Origin: Chryseobacterium taklimakanense
GTDB lineage: Bacteria; Bacteroidota; Bacteroidia; Flavobacteriales; Weeksellaceae
Direction of reading: 5' to 3'
NCBI RefSeq assembly: GCF_900187185.1
Contig: NZ_LT906465.1
Coordinates: forward strand, 1,550,001 to 1,614,000
DNA length: 64,000 bases
The notes beneath the pieces are model-generated. The model had not been told where the DNA came from. It was given only the letters and a program-made list of their open reading frames with translations, and did no database searches. Positions within the stretch are counted from its first letter, which is position 1. The number at the start of each line of letters is the position of its first letter. The translations under genes and the position numbers were made by a program. Positions 17,540-53,896 of the stretch are shown here, one piece after another.

Positions 17540-18328
17540 TTAAACAATATTCTCAAAGGAAAGAGTTCGGTACTGTACCGGACTCTTTCCTTTGAGATTG
17601 AGTCTTATTCTATCATTGTTGTAATAGTGAATGTACTTCACTATTTCCATCTTAAGTTCCTGAATGGAACCAAACTTTCTGGTATAAAACATTTCTGATT
17701 TTATTGTTCCAAAAAAGTTCTCTATCACCGCATTGTCCAAACAGTTTCCTTTTCTGGACATACTTTGAATAATGCCTTTTTCTTTTAACAAGTTTTGGTA
17801 ATGTTTCATTTGATACTGCCAACCTTGATCAGAATGTAGAATGATGTTTTGTGTAGATTTTACTTTTCTGAATGATTTCTTTAGCATCCTGATGATTTGG
17901 CTGAACACAGGTCTTTCAGATAGGTCAAAACTGACAATTTCACCATTAAATAGATCGATGATTGGAGATAGGTAAAGTTTATTACCCGATACATTAAACT
18001 CTGTAACATCGGTTGCCCATTTCTGATTAGGAGCGTCCGATTTGAAATTCCTCTGTAGAACATTGGGCGCAATTTTCCCTTGCTCTCCCTTGTAAGATTT
18101 ATATTTCTTCACTCGGATAATACTCTTTAAACCTAATATTTTCATAAGTCGTAAAACAGTTTTGTGATTAATCAAAATTCCTTTTTCTTTCAAAAGCAAA
18201 GTAATTCTTCTATAGCCCAACCTTCCTTTGTGACGATGATAAATCTGCTTAATCATTTCTTTTATTTCCGCATATTTATCTTTCATTTGAAAGCGTTTTT
18301 GATAGTAATAAAAACTGCTTCTTGCCAT
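17540..18328 (-). CDS. IS3-family transposase OrfB (DDE integrase domain), copy 1
   Basis: A 262-residue catalytic part. An HTH_21-like N-terminus (HRHKGRLGYRRITLLLKEKG) precedes the rve integrase core. The catalytic triad is Asp107 (WATDVTEF), Asp167 (LHSDQGWQY) and Glu203 (NAVIENFFGTIKSE); the D-35-E spacing is classical. It is probably made mainly as an OrfAB fusion through a -1 frameshift at CTTTTTT on this strand (18421-18427, A6G in the mRNA); the -1 frame is open from there to the ATG. The last codons coincide with a 22-bp hairpin (17552-17596). Confidence 0.93.
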   Translation of the reverse strand: MARSSFYYYQKRFQMKDKYAEIKEMIKQIYHRHKGRLGYRRITLLLKEKGILINHKTVLRLMKILGLKSIIRVKKYKSYKGEQGKIAPNVLQRNFKSDAPNQKWATDVTEFNVSGNKLYLSPIIDLFNGEIVSFDLSERPVFSQIIRMLKKSFRKVKSTQNIILHSDQGWQYQMKHYQNLLKEKGIIQSMSRKGNCLDNAVIENFFGTIKSEMFYTRKFGSIQELKMEIVKYIHYYNNDRIRLNLKGKSPVQYRTLSFENIV

Positions 18329-18369
18329 CGATGTACAATCCAGCAGTACTGCTAAATCAAAGTCCTGCC

Positions 18370-18894
18370 TTAACTCTTCGATGGCTTTGGATTTTTCCTT
18401 TCCTGAATTAAGGCGTCTAACTTTTTTAAAATGGCGTTCTCGGCTTCTAAATAATAAATCCTCTCCAACAGTTCTTCCTCCCTTGTTAAGGGTTTGCCTG
18501 TTTTCTTTTTTTTTCGCTTGTAATTACTCATGGTTTTAGGTCTTCCCCTGGGTCTGTTTTCTAAACCTAAAATACCATTTTTTTTGTAATTACGCTGCCA
18601 ACTAAGAATACTGGACTCCGCAGGAATATTAAACCTTCTCGACGCTTCTTTTAAACTTAAATTCTCTTTCTCAATTACTGATAAAATCTTTAATTTAAAA
18701 TCTTTTGTGTAATGCCTATTGGAAAGCCGAACAAGTCCTGAAACTCCATAAAGTTCATAAAATTTTATCCATTTACGAACCAATGAACCACAAACTCCAA
18801 TGCGTTTTCCTAAATCGTCTGTTCCAATGTCACCTTTGTGATATCTCTTTATAGCTTTTAATTTAAAGTCTGCTGAATATTTACTTTTCCCCAT
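18370..18894 (-). CDS. IS3-family OrfA, copy 1
   Basis: A 174-residue DNA-binding part of the transposase. Two helix-turn-helix regions are visible (YSADFKLKAIKRYHKGDIGTDDLGKRIGV and FKLKILSVIEKENLSLKEASRRFNI, SILSWQRNYKKNG), then a basic RGRPK stretch and a C-terminal leucine-zipper-like segment (EEELLERIYYLEAENAILKKL) that ends at the frameshift site. The start at ATG 18894 matches copy 2. A longer frame into flanking DNA exists but runs through the IS end and the host terminator, so it is not used. Confidence 0.92.
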   Translation of the reverse strand: MGKSKYSADFKLKAIKRYHKGDIGTDDLGKRIGVCGSLVRKWIKFYELYGVSGLVRLSNRHYTKDFKLKILSVIEKENLSLKEASRRFNIPAESSILSWQRNYKKNGILGLENRPRGRPKTMSNYKRKKKKTGKPLTREEELLERIYYLEAENAILKKLDALIQERKNPKPSKS

Positions 18895-18933
18895 AAAAAA
18901 TGCCCCTAAAAAGTGTCTAACTTTTTGGGGGCA
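18895..18933 (-). terminator. Intrinsic terminator inside the IS3 end, before orfA (copy 1)
   Basis: On the minus strand, TGCCCCCAAAAAG, a 7-nt loop and CTTTTTAGGGGCA are followed by T6 and directly by the orfA ATG. It would stop transcription entering from the GLPGLI gene. Confidence 0.75.
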
Positions 18934-18961
18934 GTCCAGTCGCTCGACAGGTTTTTTTATT

Positions 18962-19807
18962 TTATTTCTTCTCCGGAAGTTCAATCGGGTTACTGTTTTT
19001 AGCAATTTCTGTCTTTATCCTTGTTTCCATTTCCTTCATACGCTGGGGGTTATTTCGCATCACTGGCGGTGAAGGTGCTCCAGATGCGCTTGGCGGCGGC
19101 GGTGGAGCGCCTGGTCCTCCGATATTAAAAAATGACATTGGATCCTTGAGAAATTTGGCCTGCTGTTTATCAAAATCCGCACGTTTTACTTTTAACACAT
19201 TACCCCGGTCCTGCAATGTGGCAGCCTCTGAGATTCTTTTGGTTTCTTTAAGATCAAAACTGTAATCACCGGCTTCATCTTCCACTTTTACAATCAGCCC
19301 CGGCAAACCAGAAAATTTATATGGCCCGTCCTGAAATGGAACGTCAGTCGTAAACCACGCATTCCAGTTTCTTCCGCCAAAACTGGTTGTAGCTTTCTGA
19401 GCCTTATAGTTCCCGATGATCAAGGTTTCTGGAAGGATTTTCCAGTCAAAGGTTCTGTCTTCCTCATACGCATAAATATCCCGTCCAATTCTTTGCTTAA
19501 AAACGGATTTTTGAGTCTTAAAATCCTTCTCTACTGTGTATTCAATATTCGAGCGAAGATTTTCCATAGCATCACGGTTGAAATTTCCTGTGGTGCGCAT
19601 TCTTTCCATCAGCGAGTCACGCTTTACTCTGTTTTCAGCAACAAACACTGATCTTTCAGGAGATACGTCGAGGTAAACGTTTTCGGTTCTGACATCTGTT
19701 TTATCAGCGGAATTCGCTTTCATAGTCGCTTGGTAAACAAATCTTGATGTCTGCGAAAACAATAGCGAGGAAATGGCTATTCCTGCAAAGCTGAGTGCTT
19801 TTTTCAT
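18962..19807 (-). CDS. GLPGLI family secreted protein
   Basis: 281 residues with signal peptide MKKALSFAGIAISSLLFSQ. It contains the family signature FSGLPGLIVKVEDEAGDYSFDL preceded by NWNAWFTTDVPFQDGPYKF, which defines the Bacteroidota GLPGLI family (TIGR01200-like). The family's function is unknown; members are exported, probably to the periplasm or outer membrane. The C-terminus holds a Pro/Ala-rich segment (GGPGAPPPPPSASGAPSPP). It is convergent with rplY; the shared terminator downstream of its stop is interrupted by IS3 copy 1. A divergent partner is sufA. Confidence 0.88.
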   Translation of the reverse strand: MKKALSFAGIAISSLLFSQTSRFVYQATMKANSADKTDVRTENVYLDVSPERSVFVAENRVKRDSLMERMRTTGNFNRDAMENLRSNIEYTVEKDFKTQKSVFKQRIGRDIYAYEEDRTFDWKILPETLIIGNYKAQKATTSFGGRNWNAWFTTDVPFQDGPYKFSGLPGLIVKVEDEAGDYSFDLKETKRISEAATLQDRGNVLKVKRADFDKQQAKFLKDPMSFFNIGGPGAPPPPPSASGAPSPPVMRNNPQRMKEMETRIKTEIAKNSNPIELPEKK

Positions 19808-28807: not shown

Positions 28808-28815
28808 TAATTTTG
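28808..28815 (+). promoter_or_regulatory. Probable promoter -7 box for the phosphoesterase gene
   Basis: TAATTTTG 12 bases before ATG 28828. It overlaps the alternative TTG start at 28813, which argues for the ATG. Confidence 0.55.
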
Positions 28816-28827
28816 GAAAAACTCAAA

Positions 28828-29691
28828 ATGCCCGATAAACGCGACGTAGAAATTGTAATTCTCTCCGATATCCATCTGGGAACTTACGGCTGTCATGCGA
28901 CCGAACTGGTGGCTTACCTGAAAAGTGTAAGACCAAAACTCCTCATTCTGAACGGTGATATTATCGACGGATGGGCATTCTCCAAAAGGTATTTCCCCAA
29001 TTCGCACATGGCGGTGATTTCTGAAATTTTCAGAATGATGCAGAAGGACACCAAAGTTATCTATATCACCGGAAACCACGATGAATTCCTGCGTAAGTAC
29101 ACTGATCTATCAATGGGCAACCTTTTCCTTACCGATAAATATTTACTTGAAATCGACGGAAAAAAACACTGGATTTTCCATGGCGACATCTTTGACCACA
29201 CGACCAAAGGCGGCGCAAAAATCATCGCAAAAATCGGCGGAATCGGTTACGACTGGCTGATTTTGCTGAACCGGGCCATCAATTGGTTTTTAGACAGCAT
29301 CGGTCGGCAGAAAGTCTCGCTTTCCAAAAAAATAAAAAATTCGGTGAAAAAAGCCGTGAAATTCATTGCAGATTTCGAGGAAAAAGCGATAGAATTGGCG
29401 ATCGACAATCATTACGAGTATGTGATCTGCGGGCACATTCATATGCCTTCGGACAGAGAGGTGGTAACAGAAAAAGGAAAAACCCACTACCTGAATTCCG
29501 GCGACTGGATTGAAAATCTTTCCTGGTTAGAATACAATGAAGGAAAATGGTCGCTCAATTTCTTTGACGAAACCAAGTTCAAAAAGCCCGAAATTGAAAC
29601 CTACGACATGAGCGTGAATATGGAAGAACTCATCCATCCCACTACGCTTGCTGCATTCACTGTCCAAAAAACCATACAAACTTTGGCATAA
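28828..29691 (+). CDS. UDP-2,3-diacylglucosamine diphosphatase-like metallophosphoesterase (LpxH type)
   Basis: A 287-residue calcineurin-like phosphoesterase with the five metal blocks: LSDIHLG (Asp14, His16), LNGDIIDGW, ITGNHDEFL, FHGDIFDH and ICGHIHMPSD. The family to which this belongs hydrolyses UDP-2,3-diacylglucosamine to lipid X in lipid A synthesis. The central helical insert (IGYDWLILLNRAINWFLDSIGRQ) fits the LpxH cap. The start at ATG 28828 is chosen over TTG 28813. The stop codon abuts the half-terminator next to the IS1182-like element. Confidence 0.86.
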   Translation: MPDKRDVEIVILSDIHLGTYGCHATELVAYLKSVRPKLLILNGDIIDGWAFSKRYFPNSHMAVISEIFRMMQKDTKVIYITGNHDEFLRKYTDLSMGNLFLTDKYLLEIDGKKHWIFHGDIFDHTTKGGAKIIAKIGGIGYDWLILLNRAINWFLDSIGRQKVSLSKKIKNSVKKAVKFIADFEEKAIELAIDNHYEYVICGHIHMPSDREVVTEKGKTHYLNSGDWIENLSWLEYNEGKWSLNFFDETKFKKPEIETYDMSVNMEELIHPTTLAAFTVQKTIQTLA

Positions 29692-29729
29692 AGAATCCGT
29701 CTCACAATAAAAATTGAGGCGGATTTTTT
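29692..29729 (+). terminator. Left terminator at the IS1182-like element
   Basis: Stem AATCCGTCTCA / TGAGGCGGATT (29695-29705 and 29715-29725, one U-G pair) followed by T6. The left arm begins one base after the phosphoesterase stop; the right arm probably belongs to the end of the element. An inverted near-copy lies at 31379-31410. Confidence 0.8.
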
Positions 29730-31394
29730 ATTGCAGTTCCAATCTTCAATGTTTTGGAAAAAGAAAAAGTTGTCTTCTTTAGGCAACTTTCTTTCTTAAA
29801 TTGTGTGCTAATGCGTGCAATCCGAACTCCAATTCTACTTTTTTCAGACCTTTCAGGGTAAACCGCTTAAAATTGTTGCAATGTTTCAGATGTGCAAACA
29901 CGGGTTCTACTTCAACTGAGCGTTGTCTGCGTTTTTTAATGCCTTCTTGGCTGTTTAAGAGTTCCCTGATTTTCTCTTTGTACTGCTCCAGATGATGGTT
30001 TCGCTCTACACTGCGATTTTCTTTGGAACTGTGACAAACGCCTCTGATTGGGCATCCATCACAGTTTTTAGCCTGATAATGCGAGAGTTTCTGAGGGTAA
30101 CCGGTCTTGGTTTTCCGAGTGCTTTCGTGTGTTTTTTCCATCTTTTGACCCATCGGACAGACGTAATAATCTTCTTCTTGGCTGTAGTGCAGATTTTCTT
30201 TGCTGAATGTTTTGTGTTTCGCCTGATAATGGGCATCCTGCTCTTTGTCGAAGGTGTTGTATTTTACATAAGGTGTAATATTGTTCTGTTCCAGCAATTC
30301 ATAGTTCTGCTCGCTCCCATAACCTGCATCGGCAGTGAGTTCTTCTAATTCAGCCAATCTTTTTTCCCCATAGAGTTCCTCAAAATTTTTAAGATGATGC
30401 TCCAGGGTATTGAAGTCATTGGTCTGCTGATGAATGGTATAATTGACGATGATTTGATTCTCGGTAGAAATTTGTGCATTGTAGGCGGGTTTAAGTTGTC
30501 CGTTCTGCATGTGATCATCCTTCATTCTCATAAAAGTGGCGTCTTCATCCGTCTTGCTGTAAGAGTTTCTTTCTTTTAAAATCGCTTCCTGAGCTTCGTA
30601 TTTATCGAGGTTTTTCTCAAAATTATTTTTAATGTAATTCAGCTTGGCTTTAGCTTTTTTGTCGGAATCGGTCTTGCCGTCGCTGCCTTTCAATTTGGCA
30701 TTGATATTTGCTACGGTTTGCTGGATCTTTTCTTTGCTGATTTCTTTAAACTCAGGCGGCTCAGGGTCTTTGTCTTCCTCTCTTGCAACGCTTTGGGCGT
30801 ATTTCCAAAGATCTTCCAATTGGCGGAGCATTTTTTCTTTATTGGTTTTAATGGCGTTTGCCCAAACAAAAGTGTAGCGGTTTGCCTGTGCTTCGATTTT
30901 CGTTCCATCCACAAAAACCTGTCTCAAACTCACCAAGCCTTCCTCTGCCAAAAGCAAAACTACTTGCGAGAAAATATCCTTGAAAGCCGCTTCCAGCTTA
31001 TTGCTCCGGAAGCGGTTCACGGTATTGTGATCCACAATGCTCATGTTGGAAAGCCACATAAAATTGATATTTTCCCGAAGCGCTTTTTCTATCTTCCGGG
31101 AGGAATAAATATTATTCATGTACGCAAAAACCATCACTTTGAGCATCATCACGGGATGATAACTGGGATTTCCTTCTTTGCTGTAGGCTTTTAGAAGCGG
31201 ATCTATATTAATCCTCTCCAAAATATCATTGACAATCCGAACAGGGTGATTTTCGGGAATCAATTCCTCAAAACTATAAGGAAACAGCACCAGCTGATTT
31301 TGGTTATAATGCTTGAAATTCATAAACAACTATCTGATTATCAATGATAAATATACAAAAATCCTAAATAATAACCAAAAAAAATCCGCCTCAG
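29708..31394 (-). mobile_element. IS1182-family-like insertion sequence
   Basis: A single transposase gene on the minus strand, bounded by 15-bp inverted repeats TGAGGCGGATTTTTT (29715-29729, and its complement at 31379-31393). Directly outside lie AGAATCCGTCTCACAA (29692-29707) and its exact complement (31395-31410). The outer pair looks like the two halves of a single terminator between the phosphoesterase gene and bioB. The boundaries given are the inner limits of those host halves and are uncertain by a few bases. No ordinary target duplication is seen. Confidence 0.7.
29779..31323 (-). CDS. IS1182-family transposase
   Basis: A 514-residue full-length transposase. It has an N-terminal DUF772-type region (PENHPVRIVNDILERINIDPLLKAYSKEGNPSYHPVMMLKVMVFAYMNNIYSSRKIEKALRENINFMWL) and a DDE_Tnp_1 core (VFVDGTKIEAQANRYTFVWANA, then YNAQISTENQIIVNYTIHQQTNDFNTLEHHL and ELTADAGYGSEQNYELL). 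Next come a cysteine-containing stretch (YVCPMGQKM, CDGCPIRGVCHSS) and the C-terminal RRQRSVEVEPVFAHLKHCNNFKRFTLKGL with the last acidic residue. The start is ATG 31323. A small hairpin with T-rich tail (29785-29805 region) follows the stop on this strand. It appears intact. Confidence 0.9.
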   Translation of the reverse strand: MNFKHYNQNQLVLFPYSFEELIPENHPVRIVNDILERINIDPLLKAYSKEGNPSYHPVMMLKVMVFAYMNNIYSSRKIEKALRENINFMWLSNMSIVDHNTVNRFRSNKLEAAFKDIFSQVVLLLAEEGLVSLRQVFVDGTKIEAQANRYTFVWANAIKTNKEKMLRQLEDLWKYAQSVAREEDKDPEPPEFKEISKEKIQQTVANINAKLKGSDGKTDSDKKAKAKLNYIKNNFEKNLDKYEAQEAILKERNSYSKTDEDATFMRMKDDHMQNGQLKPAYNAQISTENQIIVNYTIHQQTNDFNTLEHHLKNFEELYGEKRLAELEELTADAGYGSEQNYELLEQNNITPYVKYNTFDKEQDAHYQAKHKTFSKENLHYSQEEDYYVCPMGQKMEKTHESTRKTKTGYPQKLSHYQAKNCDGCPIRGVCHSSKENRSVERNHHLEQYKEKIRELLNSQEGIKKRRQRSVEVEPVFAHLKHCNNFKRFTLKGLKKVELEFGLHALAHNLRKKVA

Positions 31395-31410
31395 TTGTGA
31401 GACGGATTCT
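31379..31410 (-). terminator. Right terminator at the IS1182-like element (for bioB)
   Basis: Read on the minus strand, AATCCGTCTCA and TGAGGCGGATT pair around a 4-nt loop, followed by eight T. It starts 8 bases after the bioB stop. It is the inverted counterpart of the hairpin at 29692-29729. Confidence 0.82.
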
Positions 31411-31415
31411 TTTGT

Positions 31416-32504
31416 TTACTTTAAGTCTTTTGCTTTTTGTTTGGCCGCTTCATTTCTCTCGATGGTATGTTCCGGTCTCGTCCATTTGGGATTTTCTCCT
31501 AACGGAACATACTGTGAATCTTCTTTTTCTACCACTTTTCTTTTAGCATGTTTTTCAAAAGGGGCTTGTGGCACTATTCCTAATTTATTAAAAAGGCTTT
31601 TGTCTTCGTTTATTTCAGGATTAGGTGTCGTTAAGAGTTTATCTCCGGCAAAAATTGAATTTGCTCCCGCGAAAAAACACAGAGCCTGCCCCTCCTGCGA
31701 AAGTCCCGTTCTACCCGCAGAAAGTCTCACCTGCGTTTTAGGCAATACGATTCTGGCAGTGGCTACCATCCTCACGAATTCGAAAATATCAACCGGTTTT
31801 TCTTTTTCGAGTGGTGTTCCTTCCACGGCAACCAAGGCGTTTATCGGGACACTTTCAGGTTGGGGTGTCATATTGGCTAATGTTTTCAGCATCCCGCAAC
31901 GGTCTTCTACACGTTCTCCCATTCCTATAATTCCGCCAGAACAAAGCGTGATTGAGGTTTTACGTATGTTTCCAATCGTTTCCAGACGATCCTCGAATGC
32001 ACGGGTAGAAATGACTTCTTTATAATATTCCTCAGAACTGTCGATATTGTGGTTGTAGGCATAAAGACCGGCTTCTTCCAGCCTCTTTGCCTGATTTTCG
32101 GTAAGCATCCCCAAGGTACAGCATACTTCCATATCGAGTTTTGTCACTTCCCGAACCATATCCAAAACTTGCTCGAATTCCGGTCCGTCTTTTACATTGC
32201 GCCAAGCGGCACCGAGACAAACCCTGGAAATGCCGTTTTCCTTGGCGGTCATCGCTTGATTTTTCACTTCATCCACAGGTAATAGACCATGAATTTTCAC
32301 CTCGGTATGGTATCTTGCGGCTTGAGGGCAATATCCACAATCTTCAGGGCAACCCCCTGTTTTTACCGAAATTAGCGAAGAAACCTGCACCTTGTTAGCG
32401 TCATGGTGTTCACGGTGAACGGTCGCTGACTTATAAATTAAATCAAGAAAAGGGAGACTATAAATTTCTAAAATTTCTTCTGTGGTCCAATTTTGCTTTA
32501 TCAT
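31416..32504 (-). CDS. bioB: Biotin synthase
   Basis: A radical SAM enzyme that inserts sulfur into dethiobiotin. 362 residues. The AdoMet cluster motif is CPEDCGYC (Cys52, 56, 59). Next are AAWRNVKDG, MEVCCTLGML, YNHNIDSSEEYY, the 2Fe-2S ligand region TLCSGGIIGMGE, and RLSAGR with the conserved Arg. The C-terminus is extended by a charged tail (about 30 residues). No other bio genes are nearby; thiL lies 16 bases upstream on the same strand and may be cotranscribed. Confidence 0.96.
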   Translation of the reverse strand: MIKQNWTTEEILEIYSLPFLDLIYKSATVHREHHDANKVQVSSLISVKTGGCPEDCGYCPQAARYHTEVKIHGLLPVDEVKNQAMTAKENGISRVCLGAAWRNVKDGPEFEQVLDMVREVTKLDMEVCCTLGMLTENQAKRLEEAGLYAYNHNIDSSEEYYKEVISTRAFEDRLETIGNIRKTSITLCSGGIIGMGERVEDRCGMLKTLANMTPQPESVPINALVAVEGTPLEKEKPVDIFEFVRMVATARIVLPKTQVRLSAGRTGLSQEGQALCFFAGANSIFAGDKLLTTPNPEINEDKSLFNKLGIVPQAPFEKHAKRKVVEKEDSQYVPLGENPKWTRPEHTIERNEAAKQKAKDLK

Positions 32505-52541: not shown

Positions 52542-53066
52542 ATGGGGAAAAGTAAATATTCAGCAGACTTTAAATTAAAAGCTATAAAGAGATATCACAA
52601 AGGTGACATTGGAACAGACGATTTAGGAAAACGCATTGGAGTTTGTGGTTCATTGGTTCGTAAATGGATAAAATTTTATGAACTTTATGGAGTTTCAGGA
52701 CTTGTTCGGCTTTCCAATAGGCATTACACAAAAGATTTTAAATTAAAGATTTTATCAGTAATTGAGAAAGAGAATTTAAGTTTAAAAGAAGCGTCGAGAA
52801 GGTTTAATATTCCTGCGGAGTCCAGTATTCTTAGTTGGCAGCGTAATTACAAAAAAAATGGTATTTTAGGTTTAGAAAACAGACCCAGGGGAAGACCTAA
52901 AACCATGAGTAATTACAAGCGAAAAAAAAAGAAAACAGGCAAACCCTTAACAAGGGAGGAAGAACTGTTGGAGAGGATTTATTATTTAGAAGCCGAGAAC
53001 GCCATTTTAAAAAAGTTAGACGCCTTAATTCAGGAAAGGAAAAATCCAAAGCCATCGAAGAGTTAA
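52542..53066 (+). CDS. IS3-family OrfA, copy 2
   Basis: 174 residues, identical to OrfA of copy 1: two helix-turn-helix regions, a basic RGRPK segment and a C-terminal zipper-like helix. The start ATG directly follows the T6 run of the IS terminator. The frameshift site AAAAAAG is at 53009-53015; from there the -1 frame reads without stop to orfB, giving a fusion that continues VRRLNSGKEKSKAIEELR. Confidence 0.93.
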   Translation: MGKSKYSADFKLKAIKRYHKGDIGTDDLGKRIGVCGSLVRKWIKFYELYGVSGLVRLSNRHYTKDFKLKILSVIEKENLSLKEASRRFNIPAESSILSWQRNYKKNGILGLENRPRGRPKTMSNYKRKKKKTGKPLTREEELLERIYYLEAENAILKKLDALIQERKNPKPSKS

Positions 53067-53107
53067 GGCAGGACTTTGATTTAGCAGTACTGCTGGATTG
53101 TACATCG

Positions 53108-53896
53108 ATGGCAAGAAGCAGTTTTTATTACTATCAAAAACGCTTTCAAATGAAAGATAAATATGCGGAAATAAAAGAAATGATTAAGCAGATTTATCAT
53201 CGTCACAAAGGAAGGTTGGGCTATAGAAGAATTACTTTGCTTTTGAAAGAAAAAGGAATTTTGATTAATCACAAAACTGTTTTACGACTTATGAAAATAT
53301 TAGGTTTAAAGAGTATTATCCGAGTGAAGAAATATAAATCTTACAAGGGAGAGCAAGGGAAAATTGCGCCCAATGTTCTACAGAGGAATTTCAAATCGGA
53401 CGCTCCTAATCAGAAATGGGCAACCGATGTTACAGAGTTTAATGTATCGGGTAATAAACTTTACCTATCTCCAATCATCGATCTATTTAATGGTGAAATT
53501 GTCAGTTTTGACCTATCTGAAAGACCTGTGTTCAGCCAAATCATCAGGATGCTAAAGAAATCATTCAGAAAAGTAAAATCTACACAAAACATCATTCTAC
53601 ATTCTGATCAAGGTTGGCAGTATCAAATGAAACATTACCAAAACTTGTTAAAAGAAAAAGGCATTATTCAAAGTATGTCCAGAAAAGGAAACTGTTTGGA
53701 CAATGCGGTGATAGAGAACTTTTTTGGAACAATAAAATCAGAAATGTTTTATACCAGAAAGTTTGGTTCCATTCAGGAACTTAAGATGGAAATAGTGAAG
53801 TACATTCACTATTACAACAATGATAGAATAAGACTCAATCTCAAAGGAAAGAGTCCGGTACAGTACCGAACTCTTTCCTTTGAGAATATTGTTTAA
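53108..53896 (+). CDS. IS3-family transposase OrfB (DDE integrase domain), copy 2
   Basis: 262 residues, identical to copy 1, with the triad Asp107, Asp167 and Glu203. It is in the -1 frame relative to orfA, and the frame is open upstream to the A6G site, as expected for programmed frameshifting. Bases 53840-53884, within the last codons, form a 22-bp hairpin with one mismatch (arms beginning CTCAAAGGAAAGAG), which may end the transposase mRNA or stabilise it. Confidence 0.94.
   Translation: MARSSFYYYQKRFQMKDKYAEIKEMIKQIYHRHKGRLGYRRITLLLKEKGILINHKTVLRLMKILGLKSIIRVKKYKSYKGEQGKIAPNVLQRNFKSDAPNQKWATDVTEFNVSGNKLYLSPIIDLFNGEIVSFDLSERPVFSQIIRMLKKSFRKVKSTQNIILHSDQGWQYQMKHYQNLLKEKGIIQSMSRKGNCLDNAVIENFFGTIKSEMFYTRKFGSIQELKMEIVKYIHYYNNDRIRLNLKGKSPVQYRTLSFENIV

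Follow-up and report, generated by a model that had tools for sequence, protein, structure and literature searches.

An IS1182-family element between convergent genes of Chryseobacterium taklimakanense whose terminal repeats are predicted terminators and which probably replaced a host hairpin

Stem-loop-replacing transposition has been published for IS1272 and TnSha1 of staphylococci (PMC4923244, PMC5678879), which belong to the IS1182 family, as does the element described here. Their target is a hairpin, often a terminator, which is removed on insertion, and no target duplication is formed. We found no discussion of element-carried terminators in these two papers. Bacteroidota members of the same family include ISMsp1 and ISCaa15 of Amoebophilus (PMC3196728). 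According to that article, ISCaa15 has stable hairpins in its first 50 bp that might interfere with its expression; we found no mention there of these hairpins as terminators or of a link to target hairpins. In a large survey, IS1182 elements were over-represented between convergent genes (PMC9208149).

We found no description in the open-licence literature of terminal repeats that double as intrinsic terminators. Group IIC introns are mobile elements that insert at intrinsic terminators and use host terminator hairpins as benign targets, but they are retroelements and are not known to remove the hairpin or to bring terminators as their ends. The transposase expression of IS10 and IS50 is kept low against impinging host transcripts, but this protection depends on mRNA structure or promoter arrangement and is not known to involve terminators in the terminal repeats. 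Here we describe a locus at which a stem-loop-replacing IS1182 element with predicted inward terminators as its ends has probably replaced a hairpin between a phosphoesterase gene and bioB. The use of a terminal repeat as a predicted terminator, together with direct empty-site evidence in Bacteroidota, appears to be new.

The window, the whole stretch of 64,000 nucleotides that was analyzed, contains the features listed in Table 1. The identification of the element as IS1182-like in the first-pass annotation was confirmed, as the transposase open reading frame scored 454.7 bits against NF033551 (cut-off, 270) and contains the DDE_Tnp_1_6 and DUF772 domains. This is the one gene of the element, and it is bounded by terminal inverted repeats. 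The phosphoesterase stop codon TAA occupies 29689-29691, and the element starts after one further base. Host DNA on the left ends in GGCATAAA, and that on the right begins with TTTTGTTTAC; no direct repeat was present at the flanks of the element. Where the transposase gene ends, a further hairpin plausibly serves to terminate its transcript. A −7 box was found within 70 bp in 23 of 27 related elements, compared with 51% in shuffled sequences, and the box listed for the present copy is a weak candidate for part of the transposase promoter.

Table 1 Features of the element and its flanking genes (positions in the window).
Feature	Position	Strand	Remark
Phosphoesterase gene, calcineurin-like (LpxH-like)	28813..29691	+	Score under the LpxH equivalog cut-off
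TAAA, left host remnant (stop codon plus A)	29689..29692	.	Side on which the 5′ A-tract of the lost hairpin is expected
IS1182-family insertion sequence, complete, 1717 bp	29693..31409	-	Refined boundaries
Transposase-distal terminal inverted repeat, hairpin and T-run	29693..29729	+	Predicted terminator for phosphoesterase-side transcription
Parts of the transposase-distal repeat	29693-29704; 29715-29729	+	Arm GAATCCGTCTCA; loop; arm and T-run TGAGGCGGATTTTTT
Hairpin at the transposase gene 3′ end, with a T-run on each strand	29766..29790	-	Scan reported + strand
DDE transposase gene of the IS1182 family, 516 aa	29779..31329	-	
Possible −7 box of the transposase promoter, TATATTTA (TANNTTTG-like)	31348..31355	-	Just inside the terminal hairpin
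Transposase-proximal terminal inverted repeat, hairpin and T-run, GAATCCGTCTCACAACTGAGGCGGATTTTTTTT	31377..31409	-	Predicted terminator for bioB-side transcription
TTTT, right host remnant	31410..31413	.	Expected T-tract side of the lost hairpin
bioB (biotin synthase)	31416..32504	-	Convergent to the phosphoesterase gene

The inverted arms noted at first flanking the element are present and are exact complements (AAAGAATCCGTCTCACAA at 29690-29707 and its partner at 31395-31412). The inner arms, AATTGAGGCGGATTTTTT at 29712-29729 and its partner at 31379-31396, match at 17 of 18 positions. At each end, the element itself contains the two stem arms and the T-run, in the order GAATCCGTCTCA-loop-TGAGGCGGATTTTTT; the outer 15 bases are the same at both ends and are followed by loops of unequal length. 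The sequence GAATCCGTCTCACAA occurs twice in the window, at the two ends of the element, compared with 0.17 occurrences expected from shuffling. Exact matches of TGAGGCGGATTTTTT are likewise confined in the window to the two element ends, and the four matches in the whole genome are the ends of two copies of the element. RNA that enters the element from the host side has folding energies of −18.3 and −19.5 kcal/mol at the two junctions (z about −6.2), and none of 200 shuffled sequences folded as well. Outward RNA at the same ends folds more weakly (−10.2 and −12.3 kcal/mol). Each terminal repeat is described here as a predicted inward-facing intrinsic terminator.

Comparison with other copies defined the boundaries of the element. 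A second copy, in the opposite orientation and 620 kb away (G000:C1, approximately 2,199,989-2,201,705), has no mismatches over 1717 bp, and the same genome also contains a copy with 71% identity, as well as several remnants. Recombination between the two identical copies, which are inverted and 620 kb apart, could invert a fifth of the chromosome. Both ends of the second copy, and of relatives from Chryseobacterium and Epilithonimonas, read GAATCCGTCTCACAA...TGAGGCGGATTTTTT or differ from it slightly, as the first-pass annotation had predicted for TGAGGCGGATTTTTT; the flanks of these copies are unrelated, with divergence beginning right before the first G. In 13 copies from Vaginella massiliensis and 20 from Flavobacterium covae, conservation halts exactly at GAAGCC or GAGGCT. 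The end hairpins span 33-37 nt and are the same at both ends of the second copy and in the relatives. Because conservation in the copies and relatives stops at the outer arms, the element is delimited at 29693-31409. From these alignments, the sequences that had been taken for halves of a host terminator are the outermost 12 to 15 bases of the element.

Covariation was analyzed in a 12-pair stem using 35 distinct ends of IS1182 elements from across the Bacteroidota. In this stem, 97.5% of cells were paired, and two-sided changes occurred at 9 of the 12 pairs, in 43 cells compared with 11.6 in shuffles. When the partner was shifted by 1 to 3 columns, pairing fell to 41-56%. In the 65 copies examined, almost every end has a hairpin with a T-run, although the automatic choice took a different hairpin at three ends (left of L148, right of L062 and left of L056). 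The mean hairpin-plus-T-run score was −36.5 on the inward strand (130 ends of the 65 copies), −14.8 within the transposase gene and −22.8 on the outward strand; only means were compared, as the score threshold was too loose to separate the controls. These ends combine a G/C-containing hairpin, a T-run and compensatory changes.

Recognition of folded DNA by the transposase may be what maintains the end hairpins, instead of or besides a role as terminators. In its stronger form, this explanation makes the terminator activity incidental: the hairpins would fold as DNA and be recognized in the same way as target hairpins. This is possible, but we consider it unlikely. Transposases of the family do act on stem-loops (PMC4923244, PMC5678879), and terminal repeats are usually the binding sites of the transposase. 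Among non-Watson-Crick core pairs on the inward strand, 62 were G-T and 7 were A-C, numbers that overstate the independent events, as the predominant T-G wobble in part reflects a single column shared by descent; a G-T bias would also fit a single DNA strand. However, at almost all ends the inward 3′ arm runs straight into a T-run, which DNA recognition would not need; together with the G-T asymmetry, this T-run points to an inward RNA terminator.

Members from Firmicutes also speak against a purely structural role in DNA. They have an inward hairpin and T-run just inside a terminal repeat that is not itself a hairpin, at one or both ends; in the case of the staphylococcal and plasmid members, this was judged by scanning for terminators and reading the ends. 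Thus, a terminator is retained also when the repeat does not provide it. In IS1272-like copies, the terminal GAGGCTGGGACATAA is followed by the inward hairpin and T-run at the transposase-proximal end, whereas in the Bacteroidota elements the repeat itself forms the hairpin, at both ends. The loci with a hairpin inside the repeat are L149, L150, L199-L201, L223, L227 and L229, which include IS1182 itself and IS1272-like copies. This arrangement could show how the Bacteroidota form arose. We found no strong terminator-like ends in the proteobacterial members ISKpn6 and ISCfr1 and one Agrobacterium copy; such ends are therefore not universal in the IS1182 family.

We searched for empty sites by comparing the joined flanks of seven sister copies with 320 genomes of the bacterial family. 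Empty sites with 94-99% identical flanks were found for five insertions. In every case the element had taken the place of a single host hairpin, 21-27 bp long, which was lost from its base or from close to it, and the target was not duplicated. The replaced sequences were AACCTTCCGGATCGGAAGGTT at L044 (flank identity, 318/320), ACCTCCGGAAATTCCGGAGGT at L053 (317/320, in two genomes), AATAGAGCCTGAATTTCAGGCTCTATT at L018 (315/320), AAAGACTAATATTTCTATTAGTCTT at L011 (312/320) and AGAATCCTGCAATTTCGCAGGAT at L045 (301/320). T-rich sequence follows four of the five hairpins and is less pronounced after the L011 target. Most element hairpins (−17 to −25 kcal/mol) match or exceed the removed ones (−9.5 to −19.3 kcal/mol) in stability. 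In deleting a hairpin and forming no target site duplication, the sister copies behave like IS1272.

Each of the three flank positions closest to the element is an A in 74-86% of cases. At L049, complementary stem remnants of 8 bp (AAGAGGAT) survive in both flanks, which would fit a cut partway up the target stem. The flank remnants of one copy showed more complementarity than permuted ones (2.9 compared with 1.99 nt; 0 of 5000 permutations). At L077 and L057, the element lies, by eye, directly after apparent tRNA 3′ ends, and tRNA terminators may also serve as targets.

An ordinary insertion into an A/T-rich intergenic gap, with no terminator removed and a coincidental match to hairpins, would fit the A/T-rich flanks, and exclusion of insertions from essential genes would enrich intergenic sites anyway. 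We regard this as very unlikely, as all five sister copies with close empty sites have lost exactly one hairpin and facing gene ends exceed the intergenic controls. A gene 3′ end faces the element within 100 bp in 35 of 55 copies and on both sides in 10 of 55; the corresponding values are 27% and 1.1% for random intergenic points and 8% and 0.4% for random flank points.

For the present copy, a DNA search of the 320 family genomes gave a single match across the phosphoesterase/bioB junction. This genome, the metagenome-assembled genome G013 (80% complete, 7% contamination), belongs to another genus and shows a low DNA identity of 67%; its two genes are convergent, with no element between them. 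No closer empty site was available for this copy, as its own genus was represented by this genome alone. In this distant relative, the junction holds one long hairpin of unrelated sequence that extends into the end of bioB. At this empty junction (L135, G013:C192), the long intergenic hairpin seems to include the bioB stop codon, and the phosphoesterase match is in two pieces. From the sister sites and the TAAA and TTTT remnants, we infer that a host hairpin was replaced between the phosphoesterase gene and bioB.

The first-pass annotation had instead proposed that the insertion split a single 16-bp host stem (AGAATCCGTCTCACAA) and that each half now re-pairs with an element repeat, an idea to which we give practically no credence, as the outer arms, although exact complements adjoining the stop codons, recur with unrelated flanks at the second copy and in relatives, both arms of each terminator are element DNA so that the terminators are not hybrids, and the expected AGAATCCGTCTCA hairpin is absent from the G013 junction and from the five sister empty sites, which carry other hairpins; recurring arms and sister sites together rule it out. 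The outcome proposed there, an element lodged in a terminator with both genes still terminated, probably holds at the level of predicted termination, as sister copies sit exactly at former host hairpins and each junction has a terminator-like hairpin with a T-run. The mechanism does not hold, as the hairpin would have been replaced and not split and then rebuilt.

In the replacement that we favor, the transposase would excise the host terminator hairpin and put the element at the hairpin base with no target duplication, leaving short A and T remnants of the host hairpin on both sides. Each repeat, with its outer arm, inner arm and T-run, would then fold into a complete inward intrinsic terminator. 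Each convergent host gene would meet an element-encoded terminator just beyond its stop codon, restoring termination, and the transposase gene would be shielded from host read-through on both sides; such insulation may be the selective reason for the arrangement. A broader proposal is that IS1182 elements have evolved an exchange of terminator for terminator, seeking out host terminator hairpins, excising them and inserting terminator ends, and here we see the chances as evenly balanced. If this is true, insertion would be nearly neutral for flanking genes and the transposase would be insulated, the repeat recognized by the transposase and the RNA terminator would be one sequence in Bacteroidota, and the element end may mimic its own target.

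Replacement of this kind would account for a transposon that abuts two genes at their stop codons and causes no obvious harm. The five clean empty sites extend stem-loop replacement beyond staphylococci. A testable design rule follows, in which one target hairpin goes out and two element terminators come in, and it suggests a reason for the excess of IS1182 between convergent genes (PMC9208149). For annotation, terminator-like hairpins next to these elements should be treated as parts of the element.

Two IS3-family copies with equal NCBIfam scores are also present in the window, at 17540-19005 (− strand) and 52542-53896 (+ strand). The former lies directly after the ribosomal protein L25/Ctc gene. 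Within the 3′ portion of orfB, each copy has a nearly perfect palindrome of 47 bp (17551-17597 and 53839-53885).
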